This document shows positions 24,997 to 47,034 of a DNA stretch of 48,612 nt, piece by piece; within the stretch, counting starts at the first letter, position 1, and each line of letters starts with the position of its first letter. Position numbers and translations under genes: made by a program. Origin of the DNA: Anaerolineales bacterium (GTDB lineage Bacteria > Chloroflexota > Anaerolineae > Anaerolineales > Villigracilaceae); assembly GCA_020060625.1 (NCBI GenBank), contig JAGUZU010000090.1:1-48612 (forward strand), given 5' to 3'. The notes under the pieces were generated by a model that had not been told where the DNA came from, searched no databases, and saw only the letters and a program-made list of their open reading frames with translations.

Positions 24997-25094
24997 ATGT
25001 CATTGCGAAGAATGGCGCTCACGCCACGATGAAGCAATCTCCTGCGAAAAAGGAGGTTGCTTCGTGGCGCCCAAGGCGCCACTCGCAACGACAT
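24997..25094. repeat. Dispersed palindromic element, copy A
   Basis: It starts ATGTCATTGCGA and ends TCGCAACGACAT, nearly perfect reverse complements. Inner arms GAAGCAATCTCCT and AGGAGGTTGCTTC also pair. It fills the gap between the 173-aa gene and the fused FAD/2Fe-2S gene, and supplies an ATG (25003) that is probably not the true start of the latter. Related copies lie at 37377, 41873, 43773 and 46935. Confidence 0.85.
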
Positions 25095-37376: not shown

Positions 37377-37472
37377 TGTGTCGTTGCGAGTGACGCCTCG
37401 GCGCCACGAAGCAATCCCCCGCTAACTGGGAGGTTGCTTCGGGCGAAAGAGCGCCGCCACTCGCAACGACAT
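37377..37472. repeat. Dispersed palindromic element, copy B
   Basis: The element begins TGTCGTTGCGAG and ends CTCGCAACGACA, exact reverse complements. The inner arms GAAGCAATCCCCC and GGGAGGTTGCTTC pair imperfectly. It fills the gap between the folate-corrinoid methyltransferase and the M20 gene, and its last base touches the M20 stop codon. Confidence 0.85.
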
Positions 37473-40283: not shown

Positions 40284-42121
40284 AGTATTCTTTCTAAAAA
40301 CTCCACCCGCTTCACTTCCGCATCGATCACATTCTCGATATTCAAAAACGAATGACCCTCGCCTTCATACAAAAGCAATTCTACTTCCTTTCCCAACTCG
40401 ATCAATTTGTCCCGCGCTTCCATCGAATCAGAAGCGGGGCAGCGCGGGTCGTTCTCGCCGCAGAGCATTTGCACGGGCGCATTCACGCGATCCAAAAAGA
40501 AATAGGGCGAACGGTCATGCCACAATTCTTTATTGTCTTCGGGGTCGCCCATGTTCTCGATATTCCAATGCTGCAAATCCTCGCGCGAATCCTTATGCGA
40601 TTTAAACCAATTCAAAAACGGCACCACCGCCGAACCGCCCGCAAACAATTCGGGATACATCGTCAAACAGCACATCGTCAAATACCCGCCGTGGCTTCGT
40701 CCCGTCACCGCGATTTTTTCCGCCAGCCCATTCTCCAACAAGTACTTCGCGCCTGCCGCGCAATCGTCGTTGTCCACGCCGCCCATGTCGTAGCGGCTTG
40801 CGTTTTGCCACTTCCTGCCATAACCTGTCGAGCCGCGATAATTTGGCGCAAGCACTGTCCAGCCGCGCGATGCCAGATAACTCATGGACGGCTCCCACCC
40901 AAATGAAAAATGCCAGTTCGGTCCGCCGTGAATGTTCAGAATCGCGCGTTTGCTCTCCCCGCGATATAACAACGCGGGCACTTGCGTACCATCCATTCCC
41001 GTGTACGAAATTTCTTCAGGCTGCACAAAATTCAATTCTTCATCCAACGACTTCGTGAGTTGGGTCGTCTCGCCGCTTTTCAAATGTATCTTCCATAAGT
41101 CAGGCGGGTGATTGACATCCTCATACACAAGGACGACTCCATCGGATACAAACTGCGGAAACGCATGGACTCCGTCACCGACTTTCGCTTGACGAAGTTT
41201 TCCGCCTCTTTCCCAAAACTGAAAGCTGGTTCTCGTGCCTTCGCCGTGTACCCAGCCGACGATTTCCCCGCTTCGCGACCAGGCAGGCTGTGTATCATCG
41301 CCTATGGAGTCCGTCAGCCAGGCGATTTCCTGCGTCTCAACATCGTAAATTCCAATGTTGTGCCACTCGCCATTTTCACACGAAAACGCCAGTGACTTGG
41401 AATCAGGCGACCAGGCGGGGTGCTGCGCGTTCAACGGCTTGCCATCCATCATCAACTGCACCGTGCGGACTTTCGGTCCCTTGCGCCGTCCAATGGGGAC
41501 GATGTGAATACTGCGATCACTCGCCGTCGACTCGGACTCTACTGCAATCCACATCCCATTGGGCGACCAGACCGCATCCCAGCAGGGATGGAAGATATTC
41601 CTCAGCATACGCAAGCCGCTTCCATCCAGCGGCAGCACATACAATGCGAACTGTCCCTTGGCTTCGGATAGCACCGCCAGCTTTTCCCCATCAGGCGACC
41701 ATGACATATTCGGCTGGTTGGCATACAAAATTTGCGGTGTGAGGTCTGTGGTGATGTTTGTTTTCAGATCGTGGACGCAAATGTGATAAGACTCGCTGCC
41801 GTCAATATCCAATGCAAAAGCGATCTTCGTGCCGTCGGGCGAAAAGCGCGGAGAGAATTTAGCGCCTTTCAATGTCGTTGCGAGGGGCTGCTGGTCGAGT
41901 AGCGTTTTTTGCGTATCGAAACCCAGCCCCGAAGCAACCTTCTCATTTAACTGGGGATTGCTTCGTCGCCGCTTCGCGTCTCCTCGCAATGACATGCTCC
42001 ACAACTCCCAACTCCCCGATTTATTCCACGAAAAGACGATCTTACTTTCATCAGGAGAGACAGCAAACGGCAAGCCGTTATCCACATTGGGGATGCGGAG
42101 GAATTCGGGGAGGGTCAGCAT
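40268..42121 (-). CDS. S9 family prolyl-oligopeptidase-like peptidase
   Basis: A 617-aa cytosolic serine peptidase with an N-terminal beta propeller (FSPDGTKIAF-type repeats at 92-101 and later) and a C-terminal alpha/beta-hydrolase domain. The catalytic residues are Ser476 in GRSHGGYL, Asp558 in CGENDPRCP and His590 in EGEGHSF. Residues 43-86 (from MSLRGDAKRRRSNP to ATTLKG) do not look like propeller sequence. They are the in-frame translation of dispersed palindrome copy C. The ATG at 42121 starts before a typical N-terminus; upstream codons lie in repeats. It sits within the MttB cluster. Its last codons come from another repeat. Confidence 0.88.
   Translation of the reverse strand: MLTLPEFLRIPNVDNGLPFAVSPDESKIVFSWNKSGSWELWSMSLRGDAKRRRSNPQLNEKVASGLGFDTQKTLLDQQPLATTLKGAKFSPRFSPDGTKIAFALDIDGSESYHICVHDLKTNITTDLTPQILYANQPNMSWSPDGEKLAVLSEAKGQFALYVLPLDGSGLRMLRNIFHPCWDAVWSPNGMWIAVESESTASDRSIHIVPIGRRKGPKVRTVQLMMDGKPLNAQHPAWSPDSKSLAFSCENGEWHNIGIYDVETQEIAWLTDSIGDDTQPAWSRSGEIVGWVHGEGTRTSFQFWERGGKLRQAKVGDGVHAFPQFVSDGVVLVYEDVNHPPDLWKIHLKSGETTQLTKSLDEELNFVQPEEISYTGMDGTQVPALLYRGESKRAILNIHGGPNWHFSFGWEPSMSYLASRGWTVLAPNYRGSTGYGRKWQNASRYDMGGVDNDDCAAGAKYLLENGLAEKIAVTGRSHGGYLTMCCLTMYPELFAGGSAVVPFLNWFKSHKDSREDLQHWNIENMGDPEDNKELWHDRSPYFFLDRVNAPVQMLCGENDPRCPASDSMEARDKLIELGKEVELLLYEGEGHSFLNIENVIDAEVKRVEFLERILTMDD
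41873..41995. repeat. Dispersed palindromic element, copy C, inside a gene
   Basis: It begins TGTCGTTGCGAG and ends CTCGCAATGACA. The inner arms GAAGCAACCTTCTC and GGGGATTGCTTCGTC match other copies. It is the longest kind of copy (about 123 bp) and is read in frame through the S9 peptidase gene, adding about 41 residues. Confidence 0.85.
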
Positions 42122-42209: not shown

Positions 42210-43685
42210 TCAAGCAGGCGCGAGTTCATCCAATCTTGGCAATTCTTCCATCCCCGCCTTTTTAGCGAGATCCAAAACAAGAACATGGACGTCCGCCAGA
42301 TGGACGGGATCAAGTGCGGGTCGAGAGAATGAAGCGAGGATTTCCGTCACCTGCTCCCTGGCGCGGGTAAAAGTATCCGGCGAGCCGCCCTGCTTCCATC
42401 CACGAATCGAATCGCGGTCAATGATTTTTGTGGGCAGGTGTTGTTCCTTTTGGAAGAGTTGCATGGTGATCTTTTGTTTGAGGAAGTCGCCGCCTTTGAA
42501 ATTGACGCCTTCAAAGAATTCGGTGGCGAGGGTTTCTGATTGTATCTTCATTCCTTCGAGCAGACGCTTTGCCATTGAAATTGACTCTGCGTCGATGACG
42601 AGTTTTTCGGGGCTTTGGCATAAAAGCGAATCAATCATGCCTGCGCCGGAGATCATATTGACGCCGCTTAACGCGCCGACGAGAAAACCCATACCGCTTT
42701 CGATGCCCGCTTGCATGTCGAGGATTTTCGCGTCGGTGGCGCCGAGGTAGGTGTGCGTGGGCAGCCCCAGCGATTTGCCGACCTGCGCGTAGGACGAGTC
42801 AATCATGGCGGTTTCGATGGCGCCATAAGGCGTGCCGCCTTTGCGCATCTCGAAGATCGCTGGCGCGCCGCCCCACACGATGGGCGAACCCGCGCGCGCG
42901 AGTTGATGAATGGCGATGCCCGAAAGGCACTCTGCCGCGTGTTGGGTGACCGCGCCAAGCAATGTCACGGGAGCCGCCGCGCCTGCCAGCGGCATGGAGA
43001 CGATCTCGGCGGGGATGCCCGCTCGCGCGAGTTCGATCAATTGACCCGCGCCGAAGTTTGACCAGATCAACGGCGGCGAGGGGCAGGCATCAAAGATGGC
43101 GCGCGGTTTCTCGCGCAGTTTATCCCGTCCGCCTGCGAAGATGGCGAGCATGTCAATCATCGCATGGACGGTCTGATTGGTGAATGCGCCTGTGACAATC
43201 GGTTTTTTGGAATACAGCATGACCAGATACAAACGATACAGGTCATGGATGTCTTTCGGTACATCGTGACAGACCACCGCCGTGGATTGCGCGTCGTATT
43301 GCGGCAGGCTTTCCGCAACCTTGATAACGCGGATCAAGTCGGCGGTTTCGGCGGTCTTGTGTTCCAGCGTCTCCGGGATGAGGACGGAGATGCCCGAGGA
43401 TCCCGGGTCGAAGTGAACCGCATCGCCTCCATACCGGACTTTGGGCTTGCCCTCGTAGTCGTACAGTTGGAACTCGCGCGGGACCGTTTCCAATGCCTTG
43501 CGGACGATTTGTTCTGGAACGCGGACGACCTGCGTTTCTTCGTTCACGTCCGCGCCGGCTTCGGCAAGCAACTGCCTTGCTTCCGCGTTCTGTACCTTGA
43601 TGCCGGGCTTGAGCATCAGTTGATAGGCTTCGTCGAGGATGCGGGAGATCAGGGCATCGTCGAGCAGGGATAACTTGGGTTGCAT
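42210..43685 (-). CDS. MttB-superfamily corrinoid-dependent methyltransferase (copy 3)
   Basis: A 491-aa MttB-superfamily protein with no internal amber codon. Segments include LSLLDDALISRILDEAYQLM, PPLIWSNFGAGQLIELARAG, LAGAAAPVTLLGAVTQH and PTHTYLGATDAKI. It is closely related to copy 2, located immediately upstream; most positions are identical in the central barrel, so the two arose by tandem duplication. GGAGG precedes the ATG. The methyl donor is unknown. Keeping both copies suggests two different but related substrates, or gene dosage. Confidence 0.92.
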   Translation of the reverse strand: MQPKLSLLDDALISRILDEAYQLMLKPGIKVQNAEARQLLAEAGADVNEETQVVRVPEQIVRKALETVPREFQLYDYEGKPKVRYGGDAVHFDPGSSGISVLIPETLEHKTAETADLIRVIKVAESLPQYDAQSTAVVCHDVPKDIHDLYRLYLVMLYSKKPIVTGAFTNQTVHAMIDMLAIFAGGRDKLREKPRAIFDACPSPPLIWSNFGAGQLIELARAGIPAEIVSMPLAGAAAPVTLLGAVTQHAAECLSGIAIHQLARAGSPIVWGGAPAIFEMRKGGTPYGAIETAMIDSSYAQVGKSLGLPTHTYLGATDAKILDMQAGIESGMGFLVGALSGVNMISGAGMIDSLLCQSPEKLVIDAESISMAKRLLEGMKIQSETLATEFFEGVNFKGGDFLKQKITMQLFQKEQHLPTKIIDRDSIRGWKQGGSPDTFTRAREQVTEILASFSRPALDPVHLADVHVLVLDLAKKAGMEELPRLDELAPA

Positions 43686-43772: not shown

Positions 43773-43887
43773 ATGTCGTTGCGAGGAGGGTGTTCTTCCC
43801 GACGCTTGTCCTGAGCCTGTCGAAGGGAAGCAATCTCTAGGCTAAAGGGGATTGCTTCGCCGCAAAGAGCGCGGCTCGCAATGACAT
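43773..43887. repeat. Dispersed palindromic element, copy D, with nested insert
   Basis: Ends are ATGTCGTTGCGAG and CTCGCAATGACAT. The left half is interrupted by GCTTGTCCTGAGCCTGTCGA (43804-43823), a sequence not found in the other copies. Inner arms GAAGCAATCTC and GATTGCTTCGCC are kept. It fills most of the 203-bp gap between MttB copies 2 and 3; GAAACGAG and GTTACTTGTTACT units precede it. Confidence 0.8.
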
Positions 43888-43888
43888 G

Positions 43889-45367
43889 TCACACAATTTC
43901 CAAATCTTCCAGCCTGGGCAATTCTTCGAGACCTGCCTTTTTGGCGAGGTCGAGCATGTACGAGTGGAGATGCGTTATCTGGTCGGGATCAAGTTCGGGT
44001 TGAGAGTATGAAGCGAGCAGTTCCTTCACACGGAGTTTGGCTCTGCCGAAGGCATCCAGCGAACCTGCTTCCTTCCAGACGCGGGTCGAGTCGCGGTCAA
44101 TCACGCTGCTGGGAAGATGCTGCTCCTCGCGGAAGAGTTTCATCGTGATCTTCTGCTTCAGGAAGTCGCCGCCTTTGAAATTGATCTTTTCGTCGTAGAA
44201 GCCTGTGGCGAGCGTGTCGGTGTGCTGCTTGACGCCACCGATCAGGCGTTTTGCCATGGCGATGCCTTCTGCATCGAGGACGAGTTTTTCCGCGCTGTGG
44301 CAGGCGAGGAAATCCAACATGCCCGAACCGGAGATCATGTTGATGCCGCTCAGCGCGCCGACCATGGCGGAGATGCCGCTTTCGAGCCCGGCTTGCGCGT
44401 CCACGAGTTTTGAATCTGTTGCGCCGAGGTAGGTGTGCGTCGGCATATTGAGCGTCTTTGCAACCTGCGCGTAGGAGCAGTCGAGCATGGCGGTTTCGAC
44501 CGCGCCCATGGGCGTCGCGCCTTTGCGCATGTCGAAGATCGCCGCCGCGCCGCCCCACACGATGGGGGCGCCGGGCTTTGCCAATTGATGGATGGTGATG
44601 CCTGCAAGGACTTCCGCCGTGTGTTGTGTGACCGTGCCAAGCATGGTGACGGGAGCCGCCGCGCCCGCCAGCGGAACGGATACGATCTCGGCAGGGATAC
44701 CTGCCCGCGCGAGCGCGATCAGATTGCCTGCGCCGAAGTTGCTCCAGATGAGCGGCGGGGCGGGGCAGACGTCAAAAATGGCGCGCGGTTTTTCTCTCGC
44801 CGCTTCCATGCCGCCCGCAAAGACCGCGAGCATGTCAATCATCTCCTGCACGGTCTTGTTGGTGAACGCGCCGGTGACGATGGGTTTCTTCGAGTACAGC
44901 AATGCAAGATACAGGCGGTACGAGTCCTGGATGTCCTTCGGCACGTCATGGCAGATCACCGCCGTGGACTGCGCGTCGTATTGCGGCAGTTGCTCCGCGA
45001 CCTTCAGCAGGCAGATGAGATGCTCGGTCTCGGTGGTCTCGTGTTCGAGCGTGTCGGGGTTGAGGATGGCGATACCCGATGAACCGGGGTCGAAGTGAAC
45101 GTCATCGCCGCCGTAATGGACGGTGGGATTGCCATCGTAATCGTACAGGTAGAATTCGCGCGGCACACTTTCCAATGCGCGTTGGACAAGCGCAGCGGGA
45201 ATCCCAACAACCTGGTTTTCAGGATATAGTTTCGCGCCCGCGGCGGCGAGCAGGTCACGCGCTTCCTCGTTTTGCACCTTGACGGCAGGACAGCGCAGAA
45301 GTTCGTATGCCTCCTCTAAAATGCGGGTGATGATCTCGTCACTGAGTAAAGTTAGTTTTGGTCTCAT
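43889..45367 (-). CDS. MttB-superfamily corrinoid-dependent methyltransferase (copy 2)
   Basis: A 492-aa MttB-superfamily protein, close paralogue of copy 3 and nearly the same length. It has LTLLSDEIITRILEEAYELL, PPLIWSNFGAGNLIALARAG, LAGAAAPVTMLGTVTQH and PTHTYLGATDSKL. No internal amber codon is present. AGAGGTG lies before the ATG. It probably uses the corrinoid protein at 47.0-47.7 kb as acceptor. The main differences from copy 3 lie at the N-terminus and around the last hundred residues. Confidence 0.92.
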   Translation of the reverse strand: MRPKLTLLSDEIITRILEEAYELLRCPAVKVQNEEARDLLAAAGAKLYPENQVVGIPAALVQRALESVPREFYLYDYDGNPTVHYGGDDVHFDPGSSGIAILNPDTLEHETTETEHLICLLKVAEQLPQYDAQSTAVICHDVPKDIQDSYRLYLALLYSKKPIVTGAFTNKTVQEMIDMLAVFAGGMEAAREKPRAIFDVCPAPPLIWSNFGAGNLIALARAGIPAEIVSVPLAGAAAPVTMLGTVTQHTAEVLAGITIHQLAKPGAPIVWGGAAAIFDMRKGATPMGAVETAMLDCSYAQVAKTLNMPTHTYLGATDSKLVDAQAGLESGISAMVGALSGINMISGSGMLDFLACHSAEKLVLDAEGIAMAKRLIGGVKQHTDTLATGFYDEKINFKGGDFLKQKITMKLFREEQHLPSSVIDRDSTRVWKEAGSLDAFGRAKLRVKELLASYSQPELDPDQITHLHSYMLDLAKKAGLEELPRLEDLEIV

Positions 45368-45436: not shown

Positions 45437-46891
45437 CTAAGACTTTTCTACCGACTTGATAATTTTGTCGAACTCTTTGCTAATTCTTTCATCCAGCGGA
45501 TCGGGCTGGTGCTCTTTCAATATCTTCCTGGCTTTGTTCAATGCCCAATCGCGCGCGTCGTCTTTTTTCGTTTCCCACTCGGTGTAGGGACGGCGATCCA
45601 AAAACTGCGGCAGGAACAGGTCGCGCATGTGATTGCGGGTGTGCTTCTGGGCGAGGAAATGCCCACCGGGTCCCACCGCCGCTATCGCGTCGAGCGCGAG
45701 GGTCTCCTCATCCACGACGATGCCCTGCATCATCTTGTGGATGATGGAAAAAATCTCGCAATCCATCATCATCTCGGCATACGACCAGATGCGGCTGCCG
45801 TGCAGGAATCCGACTCCCAGCAGCATATCGGACATGACCACGCTTGCCATGAAGGTGGAGAGACTTCCTTCAAGCCCCGCCTGCCAGTTCGGTTCCTTCG
45901 CGCCGGTGGCGAACGATCCCATCGAAAGCGGGATGTTGTAGAAATCCGCGAGGACATTGGTAGCCGCGCCGAAGAGGAAGTCTTCCGGTCCGCCGCCGGT
46001 GTACGCGCCTGAGCGCGGATCGGATGCGGTCTGCGCGGCGGCGTAAAAGACCGGCGCGCCGGGATAAGCCAGTTGTAAAAGGGCGGTGGCGGCGATCACT
46101 TCCGCGTTGCCGACGGCGAGCGTCCCTGCCATCGTTGCGGGTCCCGTCGTCAGGCAGGATGCCATGGTCATAAAGCCGGTCGGGATGCCGTGTTCGGCGG
46201 CGATCAAGGCGGCGTCGAGCGAACCGCCGTCATGTCCGAGGGGAGGCGCAGTGCATTGCATCAACGAGAGGACGGGACGCTTGCGCACTTCCGCTTTGCC
46301 GCCCGCGAGGATGACCGCCATCTCCATCGCGGCTTGCGCCTCATGCACGCTGTAAATGGACTCGGTCTGCACGTGCTTGGTGGAGTTTTCCCAGACGGCT
46401 TTGACTTCGTGCAAGCCGCGCGTTTCGGCGGGCGTGTCCTGCGCGGAGACGGGAACCCAATGAAAGGCGACTTCCTCGGTGGCATCGGCAACGCGCGCAA
46501 TATCGCGGACATCCTGCAAACAGGACGTGCGCTTTTCTTTGGTTTCGATGTCAATCACTTCCACGCCGCAGCCGTCCGTGCCGAGACAGACGTGATTTCC
46601 GTCCAGCGGTAAATCCTGCTGCGGATCGCGCGCCGCGAGCGTGTAAGCGGGCGGGCATTTCTTCAACGCCTCTTCAATGACCTGCGGCTTGACTCGCACA
46701 ATTCGTTTTTCGTGATCCACATCCGCGCCGTTTGCTTCCCAAATTTCCAACGCGCGTTTGGACGGGAATCGCACGCCGACATTTTCGATGATTTGCAGTG
46801 TCGCATCGTGAATCTTTTGAACGTCTTCCTTTGTCAGTATTTCCAGTTTCAGTTTTGGATTACTGATTGTCTTAATGTTTTTATGAGACAT
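45437..46891 (-). CDS. MttB-superfamily corrinoid-dependent methyltransferase (copy 1)
   Basis: A 484-aa MttB-superfamily protein of a third subgroup. The N-terminus reads LEILTKEDVQKIHDATLQII and ENVGVRFPSKRALEIW. Later come VCLGTDGCGVEVID and TAPPLGHDGGSLDAALIAAE, then GTLAVGNAEVIAATALLQLA and a YPGAPVFYAAAQTASDPRSG loop. No amber codon interrupts the frame. ATG 46891 follows GGAGGG. It is the first methyltransferase after the corrinoid protein, separated by repeat copy E. Its partner and substrate are inferred only from position. Confidence 0.92.
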   Translation of the reverse strand: MSHKNIKTISNPKLKLEILTKEDVQKIHDATLQIIENVGVRFPSKRALEIWEANGADVDHEKRIVRVKPQVIEEALKKCPPAYTLAARDPQQDLPLDGNHVCLGTDGCGVEVIDIETKEKRTSCLQDVRDIARVADATEEVAFHWVPVSAQDTPAETRGLHEVKAVWENSTKHVQTESIYSVHEAQAAMEMAVILAGGKAEVRKRPVLSLMQCTAPPLGHDGGSLDAALIAAEHGIPTGFMTMASCLTTGPATMAGTLAVGNAEVIAATALLQLAYPGAPVFYAAAQTASDPRSGAYTGGGPEDFLFGAATNVLADFYNIPLSMGSFATGAKEPNWQAGLEGSLSTFMASVVMSDMLLGVGFLHGSRIWSYAEMMMDCEIFSIIHKMMQGIVVDEETLALDAIAAVGPGGHFLAQKHTRNHMRDLFLPQFLDRRPYTEWETKKDDARDWALNKARKILKEHQPDPLDERISKEFDKIIKSVEKS

Positions 46892-46934
46892 GAGCCCTCC
46901 AAGGCAAAATGTCTCTCTTCTCTCTCTGAGTACT

Positions 46935-47032
46935 ATGTCATTGCGAGTGGCGCAGGGCGCCACGAAGCAATCTACTGTTTATGATGGAAGCCAAGATTGC
47001 TTCGTCGGGCTAAAGCCCTCCTCGCAATGACA
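46935..47032. repeat. Dispersed palindromic element, copy E
   Basis: Starts ATGTCATTGCGAG and ends CTCGCAATGACA. Inner arms CACGAAGCAATCT and AGATTGCTTCGTC pair around a TACTGTTT...ATGATGG centre. It fills the gap between the corrinoid protein and MttB copy 1. Confidence 0.85.
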
Positions 47033-47034
47033 AA

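Follow-up and report, generated by a model that had tools for sequence, protein, structure and literature searches.

CGTC-tagged REPs are short palindromes that lie between and inside protein-coding genes, where they add residues to the product, and they seemingly have no dedicated transposase. In the part of that literature drawn on here, the Rickettsia palindromic elements RPE-4 and RPE-6 are filed as CGTC-4 and CGTC-1 REPs, and recB of Xanthomonas campestris and X. oryzae holds different REPs at about one site (PMC3733652). Small repeats that overlap or lie inside open reading frames are also described, in the passages considered, for QMITE1 and QMITE2 of Coxiella (PMC5896051) and for enterobacterial repeat units (PMC2759123).

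We analysed a 48,612-nucleotide stretch of DNA (the window) from an Anaerolineales bacterium of the Chloroflexota, in which the gene for an S9-family peptidase contains a palindromic element, here called E. Like RPE-4 and RPE-6 as portrayed in the part cited, E is a short palindrome, intergenic as well as intragenic, that adds residues; it differs in belonging to another phylum and in bearing a TGTC tag (PMC3733652). By analogy, E would work as RPEs and intragenic CGTC REPs do. The recB case, as given in the same part of that study, shares with ours the presence of different REPs at one place in orthologues, but it concerns two species, whereas we compare dozens of orthologues and three enzymes and find strong loop differences between relatives (PMC3733652). 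E is also a different element family from the Coxiella and enterobacterial repeats, and the sections of those reports considered here do not describe repeated use of a single loop (PMC5896051, PMC2759123). The kind of process is already known; what is new here, also relative to RPE-4 and RPE-6 as far as the cited part goes, is that one codon site is used by E and by other repeat-like sequences across many orthologues and species. Literature searches, judged by titles and with partial coverage, found nothing related to GTCATTGCGAGG and no such hotspot under palindromic or REP insertion, Chloroflexi, Anaerolineae, RPE site reuse or Villigracilis.

An in-frame element in the S9 peptidase gene

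The S9 peptidase combines an N-terminal propeller-type part with a C-terminal hydrolase part, and E is located in the hairpin of the first propeller blade. The features of the window are collected in Table 1.

Table 1. Positions of the S9 peptidase gene, its E element and further E copies in the window
Feature	Position	Strand	Basis
S9-family (prolyl oligopeptidase-type) peptidase gene, 617 aa	40268..42121	-	ORF; Pfam Peptidase_S9 E 6.7e-48, PD40 E 7.6e-22
E element in the S9 gene, ATGTCATTGCGAG...CTCGCAACGACAT, coding for residues 43-83	41872..41995	-	sequence, own-genome matches, translation
Putative first REP-like half of E, TGTCATTGCGAG...GAAGCAATCCCC	41953..41994	-	sequence; within-half pairing of the family in this genome
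Putative second REP-like half of E, inverted, containing the nested palindrome	41873..41939	-	sequence; same sub-variant in own-genome copies L038, L051
Nested palindrome, GGGTTTCGATACG...CTACTCGACC	41888..41926 (ends approximate)	-	sequence; L038, L051
Another E copy	24997..25094		own-genome match
Another E copy	37378..37472		own-genome match
Another E copy	43773..43887		paired-copy reading
Another E copy	46935..47033		paired-copy reading

E is translated as 41 residues (MSLRGDAKRRRSNPQLNEKVASGLGFDTQKTLLDQQPLATT) with the frame open on both sides, and GAKFSPRFSPDG picks up again downstream of the encoded segment. The motifs GRSHGG, NDPRCPAS and EGHSF, which presumably contain the active-site Ser, Asp and His, are all present in an alignment of 30 orthologues, and to judge from its sequence the gene with its insert looks intact. 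The preliminary description of this DNA had reported a palindromic repeat inserted in frame, with propeller sequence resuming beyond it, and both points are borne out for what proves to be a dispersed repeat. Chance is excluded as the source of the palindrome by at least 46 matches in the same genome (E ≤ 0.001, itself included, 40 of 126 candidates scored), by counts of the element ends against a reversed control, and by folding z scores of -3.2 as DNA and -4.1 as RNA. An Rfam scan of the window returned no match. The insert owes its length of 41 residues to the extra palindrome nested in this copy, a sub-variant shared with two other copies in the genome (L038 and L051).

An AlphaFold2 model of the peptidase (mean pLDDT 82.9, pTM 0.86) falls below a pLDDT of 50 at residues 49-74, downstream of a strand at 39-44. 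Low confidence is not peculiar to the insert, as residues 429-447 and 521-523 of the hydrolase part are likewise below 50. The insert therefore fits a flexible loop in the model, which in itself proves neither disorder nor exposure.

Adjoining the peptidase gene on the minus strand are three ORFs of 491, 492 and 508 aa (42210-43685, 43889-45367 and 45437-46963), which may be MttB-type methyltransferase paralogues. The DNA of the first two is 72-78% alike over stretches of 166-300 bases.

Structure and spread of the E family

We compared 61 genomes, 37 from the genus (including the genome of the window, G000) and 24 from other families. The end pattern of E, ATGTCRTTGCGAG, matches G000 183 times (97 + 86), against 0 + 1 for the reversed pattern, from which we infer roughly 90 copies. 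Among the other 36 members of the genus the same count ranges from 1 (G007) to 230 (G019), with reversed-pattern controls of 0 or 1; counts in the 24 from other families start at 0 and reach 17 (G037). Besides G007, two further members of the genus are nearly free of E ends (G030 with 2 and G014 with 4). A covariance model for E found it in at least 52 of the 61 genomes. Judging by the end counts, E apparently multiplies in some lineages and disappears from others.

Forty-eight paired copies of 73-130 bases were read in G000, about half of the number implied by the end counts. They are preceded by A in 44 cases and followed by T in 40, and their length is a multiple of three in 12 of the 48, so there is no bias towards frame-preserving lengths. 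In G000 the variable fifth base of the ends covaries within the left and the right half (p = 8e-4 and 1e-4). Across the long outer inverted repeat, where one variable pair was tested, it does not (p = 0.35). The corresponding values for G021 (0.48 and 0.30 within halves, 0.48 across) are uninformative. Since base pairing in G000 is thus preserved inside the halves, E is most readily viewed as two REP-like units joined into an inverted dimer; lone half-copies also occur inside genes. A MITE-like unit with a long terminal inverted repeat is unsupported, as neither G000 nor G021 shows covariation across the outer repeat.

The preliminary description likened the insert to Rickettsia palindromic elements. 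This likeness holds for the way of working, including frame-keeping insertion in protein-coding genes, but does not establish membership: the ends of E in G000 and G021 do not follow the CGTC tetranucleotide of the CGTC-tagged REP superfamily, the tag being TGTC in 47 of 48 pairs in G000 and TGTC in 40 and CGTC in 3 of 45 in G021, in searches that allowed at most one mismatch from a TGTC pattern. As in that superfamily, the stem begins with A-T pairs beside the tag (ATTGC/GCAAT in each half) and dimers are frequent. Where that superfamily has a short tail fitting CCA, the commonest triplets after GCAAT in G000 are CTC (18) and CCC (18) of 43. None of the seven Y1_Tnp matches checked in this genome is a RAYT-type transposase flanked by E; E sequence occurs at two of the seven loci, on one side only and several hundred bases from the match.

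Two of the 48 pairs in G000 lie inside genes verified by Pfam or orthologues, namely those for the S9 peptidase and a class IV aminotransferase; the other pairs are not each proven intergenic, and most ORFs running across copies were discarded by eye as spurious or upstream of the start. For G021 we examined 58 stretches containing 65 elements or single ends, and half-elements turned up in the genes for a WecB-type epimerase and a membrane protein. These are the 2 spanning ORFs kept out of 13, the first supported by orthologues and the second by eye only. In the membrane protein (L111) the half-element lies mid-protein and reads SVIASLADAKQSN. The S9 and aminotransferase genes of G021, which were read apart from this set, each contain a complete E.

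Occupants of the hairpin in orthologues and other enzymes

In a first set of S9 orthologues, all 30 loci could be read at the loop, and E is found at the identical site and in frame in 10 of them. The remaining 20 are shorter here, with 18-25 residues between a conserved W and GAKF in 18 and with 28 and 31 in the other two, and often contain other repeat-like DNA. In the 8 of 10 E rows in which both ends could be placed, the same interval, measured by eye, retains 6-8 residues that do not belong to E, which suggests that E took the place of some 12 host codons instead of merely interrupting them. The simple insertion of the preliminary description thus stands as regards the extra segment relative to orthologues, and would need amending as regards the host codons. 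Its further claim, that the repeat adds peptide without destroying the gene, is supported by the orthologues and agrees with the low-confidence loop of the model.

We extended the comparison with a named collection, in which 50 of 54 loci were read (unread, L229, L234, L244 and L248), 24 of the 50 repeating earlier genomes; 25 of the 26 new rows entered the S9 tree, from which L225, whose loop is like that of L026, and the G006 row (L164) are absent. The search demanded an open frame, such that out-of-frame loops would go unread. Among the 55 tree rows the hairpin is occupied by E in 21, by a TTAGAGATT-type sequence (R) in 12, by a GGGAGAGGGG-type palindrome (S) in 6, which form their own clade, and by other sequences (O) in 4, with nothing recognised in 12; R, S and O are labels given by eye. 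Ten rows thus hold repeat-like sequences other than E and R. We take S to resemble a common intergenic repeat. Two of the E rows are decayed (L021 and L215) and one is partial; the 19 rows other than the two decayed ones have at least one end with no more than one mismatch. Against 300 shuffles, the R assignment beats all in 10 of 12 rows, the other two standing at 1.3% and 2.7%. Further palindromes, recognised by eye, lie in frame within or at the end of E in L003, L013, L210, L242 and L228. The S9 copy of G015 has E and is frameshifted elsewhere. On this reading of the sequences, the same first-blade hairpin is a site that holds different repeat-like sequences in related species.

Outside this hairpin, a second hairpin of the peptidase in L163 (G015) and L026 (G011) has a DALSLSKG or DALSQSKG segment, presumably from the CTTCGACAGGCTCAG repeat, and the orthologue L009 (G036) ends in a repetitive C-terminal tail, DDGRQMMDDGRWMMDDE.

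The other occupants are dispersed to differing extents. R has matches, in low numbers, in 18 of the 61 genomes, with reversed controls of zero. O matches 4 of the 61, the match in G012 being the S9 copy itself. A GTAC palindrome, which was seen at the site in the aminotransferase but not at that in S9, matches 19 of the 61, again with all reversed controls at zero. That several dispersed families reuse the S9 loop is accordingly well established for E, with a weaker case for the other occupants.

A similar loop pattern appears in two more enzymes, in whose loops elements were assigned by eye. For the class IV aminotransferase, loops were read at 29 of 30 loci (all but L100). These contain a full E in 3 (G000, G021 and G034), a partial E in 3 (G018, G029 and G009), the GTAC palindrome in 4 (G036, G017, G033 and G012) and a plain hairpin of 12-14 codons in 13, with 6 unclassified. 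The aminotransferase model has a mean pLDDT of 79.7 and falls below 50 at 198-208, inside the insert, and at 149-154. For the WecB-type epimerase, 24 of 30 loci were read, with a full E in G001, half or decayed copies in G021, G019 and G008, and other loops in 20.

Inheritance and proposed turnover at the loop

Some copies of E in the S9 gene appear clearly inherited. The inserts of G016 and G022 are 91% alike, the best match after the query itself in a search of 23 of the 37 genus genomes (hits in 22), and in L018/L218 the loop is 90% alike between flanks of 88 and 91%. In other close relatives the loop has diverged much more than its flanks. Among eight hand-chosen pairs, L024/L219 are 88% alike upstream, 84% downstream and 52% in the loop, L010/L195 are 74%, 90% and 53% alike, respectively, and L021/L215 are 94% alike downstream and 54% in the loop.

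We propose that E consists of two REP-like palindromes in inverted arrangement, is non-autonomous and is spreading through these genomes, and that copies landing in genes would mostly be purged by selection. A copy would survive where the host frame passes through an open frame of E, where the net change in length is divisible by three, and where E has landed in a surface turn that joins two strands and can accommodate added residues. The first-blade hairpin of the S9 peptidase would qualify as such a place. With repeat DNA in residence, the loop may act as a landing pad in which palindromes insert, other copies convert the resident one, or sequence is overwritten, so that the loop changes from one related species to another while the gene remains open; its peptide would most likely be tolerated and not selected for its sequence. 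We give this explanation as a whole, from the spreading pair through survival in tolerant turns to turnover of the occupied loop, a probability of about two in three. Genomes with E in the S9 gene also hold more E ends than those without (11 versus 21 genomes, 5 of the 37 in the genus lacking the gene being left out; p = 0.012, uncorrected for kinship).

Instead of repeated gain, one or a few ancestral insertions in the genus could have persisted in some lines and decayed or been displaced in others, E never having re-inserted and R being old loop sequence. The E rows share their left boundary and group together on the S9 tree (only 6 of 500 shuffles were as low), which together favour a few old gains with losses, and the orthologous-looking copies of G016/G022 and L018/L218 and the decayed copies of L021 and L215 point the same way. 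So does R: of the 12 R genomes of the tree, 7 have a copy outside the S9 gene and 5 (G030, G034, G014, G007 and G009) have none at up to two mismatches, and a single clade takes in 7 of the R rows, where R may therefore be old loop sequence. We nevertheless consider this account rather unlikely. On a quick tree in which some long branches are joined (L030, L245, L232 and L239), E requires 10 changes among the labelled rows, at least 8 of them forced by the starred branches, and 14 against all other rows. The codons at the ends of E are also kept far better than the remaining gene: identical residues share their codon there in 177 of 218 comparisons, versus 8101 of 15598 outside the insert and 1597 of 3551 for Ser, Leu and Arg only (10 E rows giving 45 mutually non-independent pairs). 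This suggests that most S9 copies are younger at the site than the split of the gene, or are kept by conversion, or are constrained as DNA, readings that the codon test does not separate; nor are gain, loss and conversion at the loop separated here. Ancestral insertion alone, moreover, leaves the other palindromes at the S9 spot and in the aminotransferase unexplained.

A function for the loop peptide, for instance as a contact surface, with selection for its diversity, would suit the very strong variation of the loop in length, with 15 lengths and a standard deviation of 9.7 in 28 rows against 2.3 at the next most variable site. We regard this as improbable, because E is read as MSLR in the S9 peptidase and as HVIA in the aminotransferase, and translation in differing frames argues against a fixed peptide function; the site is also occupied by unrelated sequences and plain hairpins, and the model of the loop is of low confidence. 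Mis-joining of repeats into the gene in draft metagenome assemblies is very hard to credit. Nearly all named relatives are, by their titles, metagenome-assembled and the frame is cut short further downstream in L240, L243 and L247, but G021, a single contig of 4,127,769 bases, has E in both the S9 and the aminotransferase genes, the E-bearing orthologues stem from many different assemblies, and the loops read were open in frame, as the search required.

In the turnover that we favour, one bolder extension can be set out: certain enzyme hairpins of these bacteria could be standing exchange sites, in which a resident palindrome attracts recombination or insertion of palindromes of any family. 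We think this unlikely; were it true, a surface loop would be rewritten far faster than the rest of its protein, a natural, repeat-driven diversification of loops. Repeats inside proteins have usually been treated as scattered accidents, whereas here one position in an enzyme, with counterparts in two more, has differing repeat-like occupants from one related species to the next while the gene stays open. By comparing such orthologues one can now test by what route repeat DNA turns into protein sequence and which loops at the surface admit it; they also provide natural loop-swap sets for studies of tolerance in propellers and hairpins.
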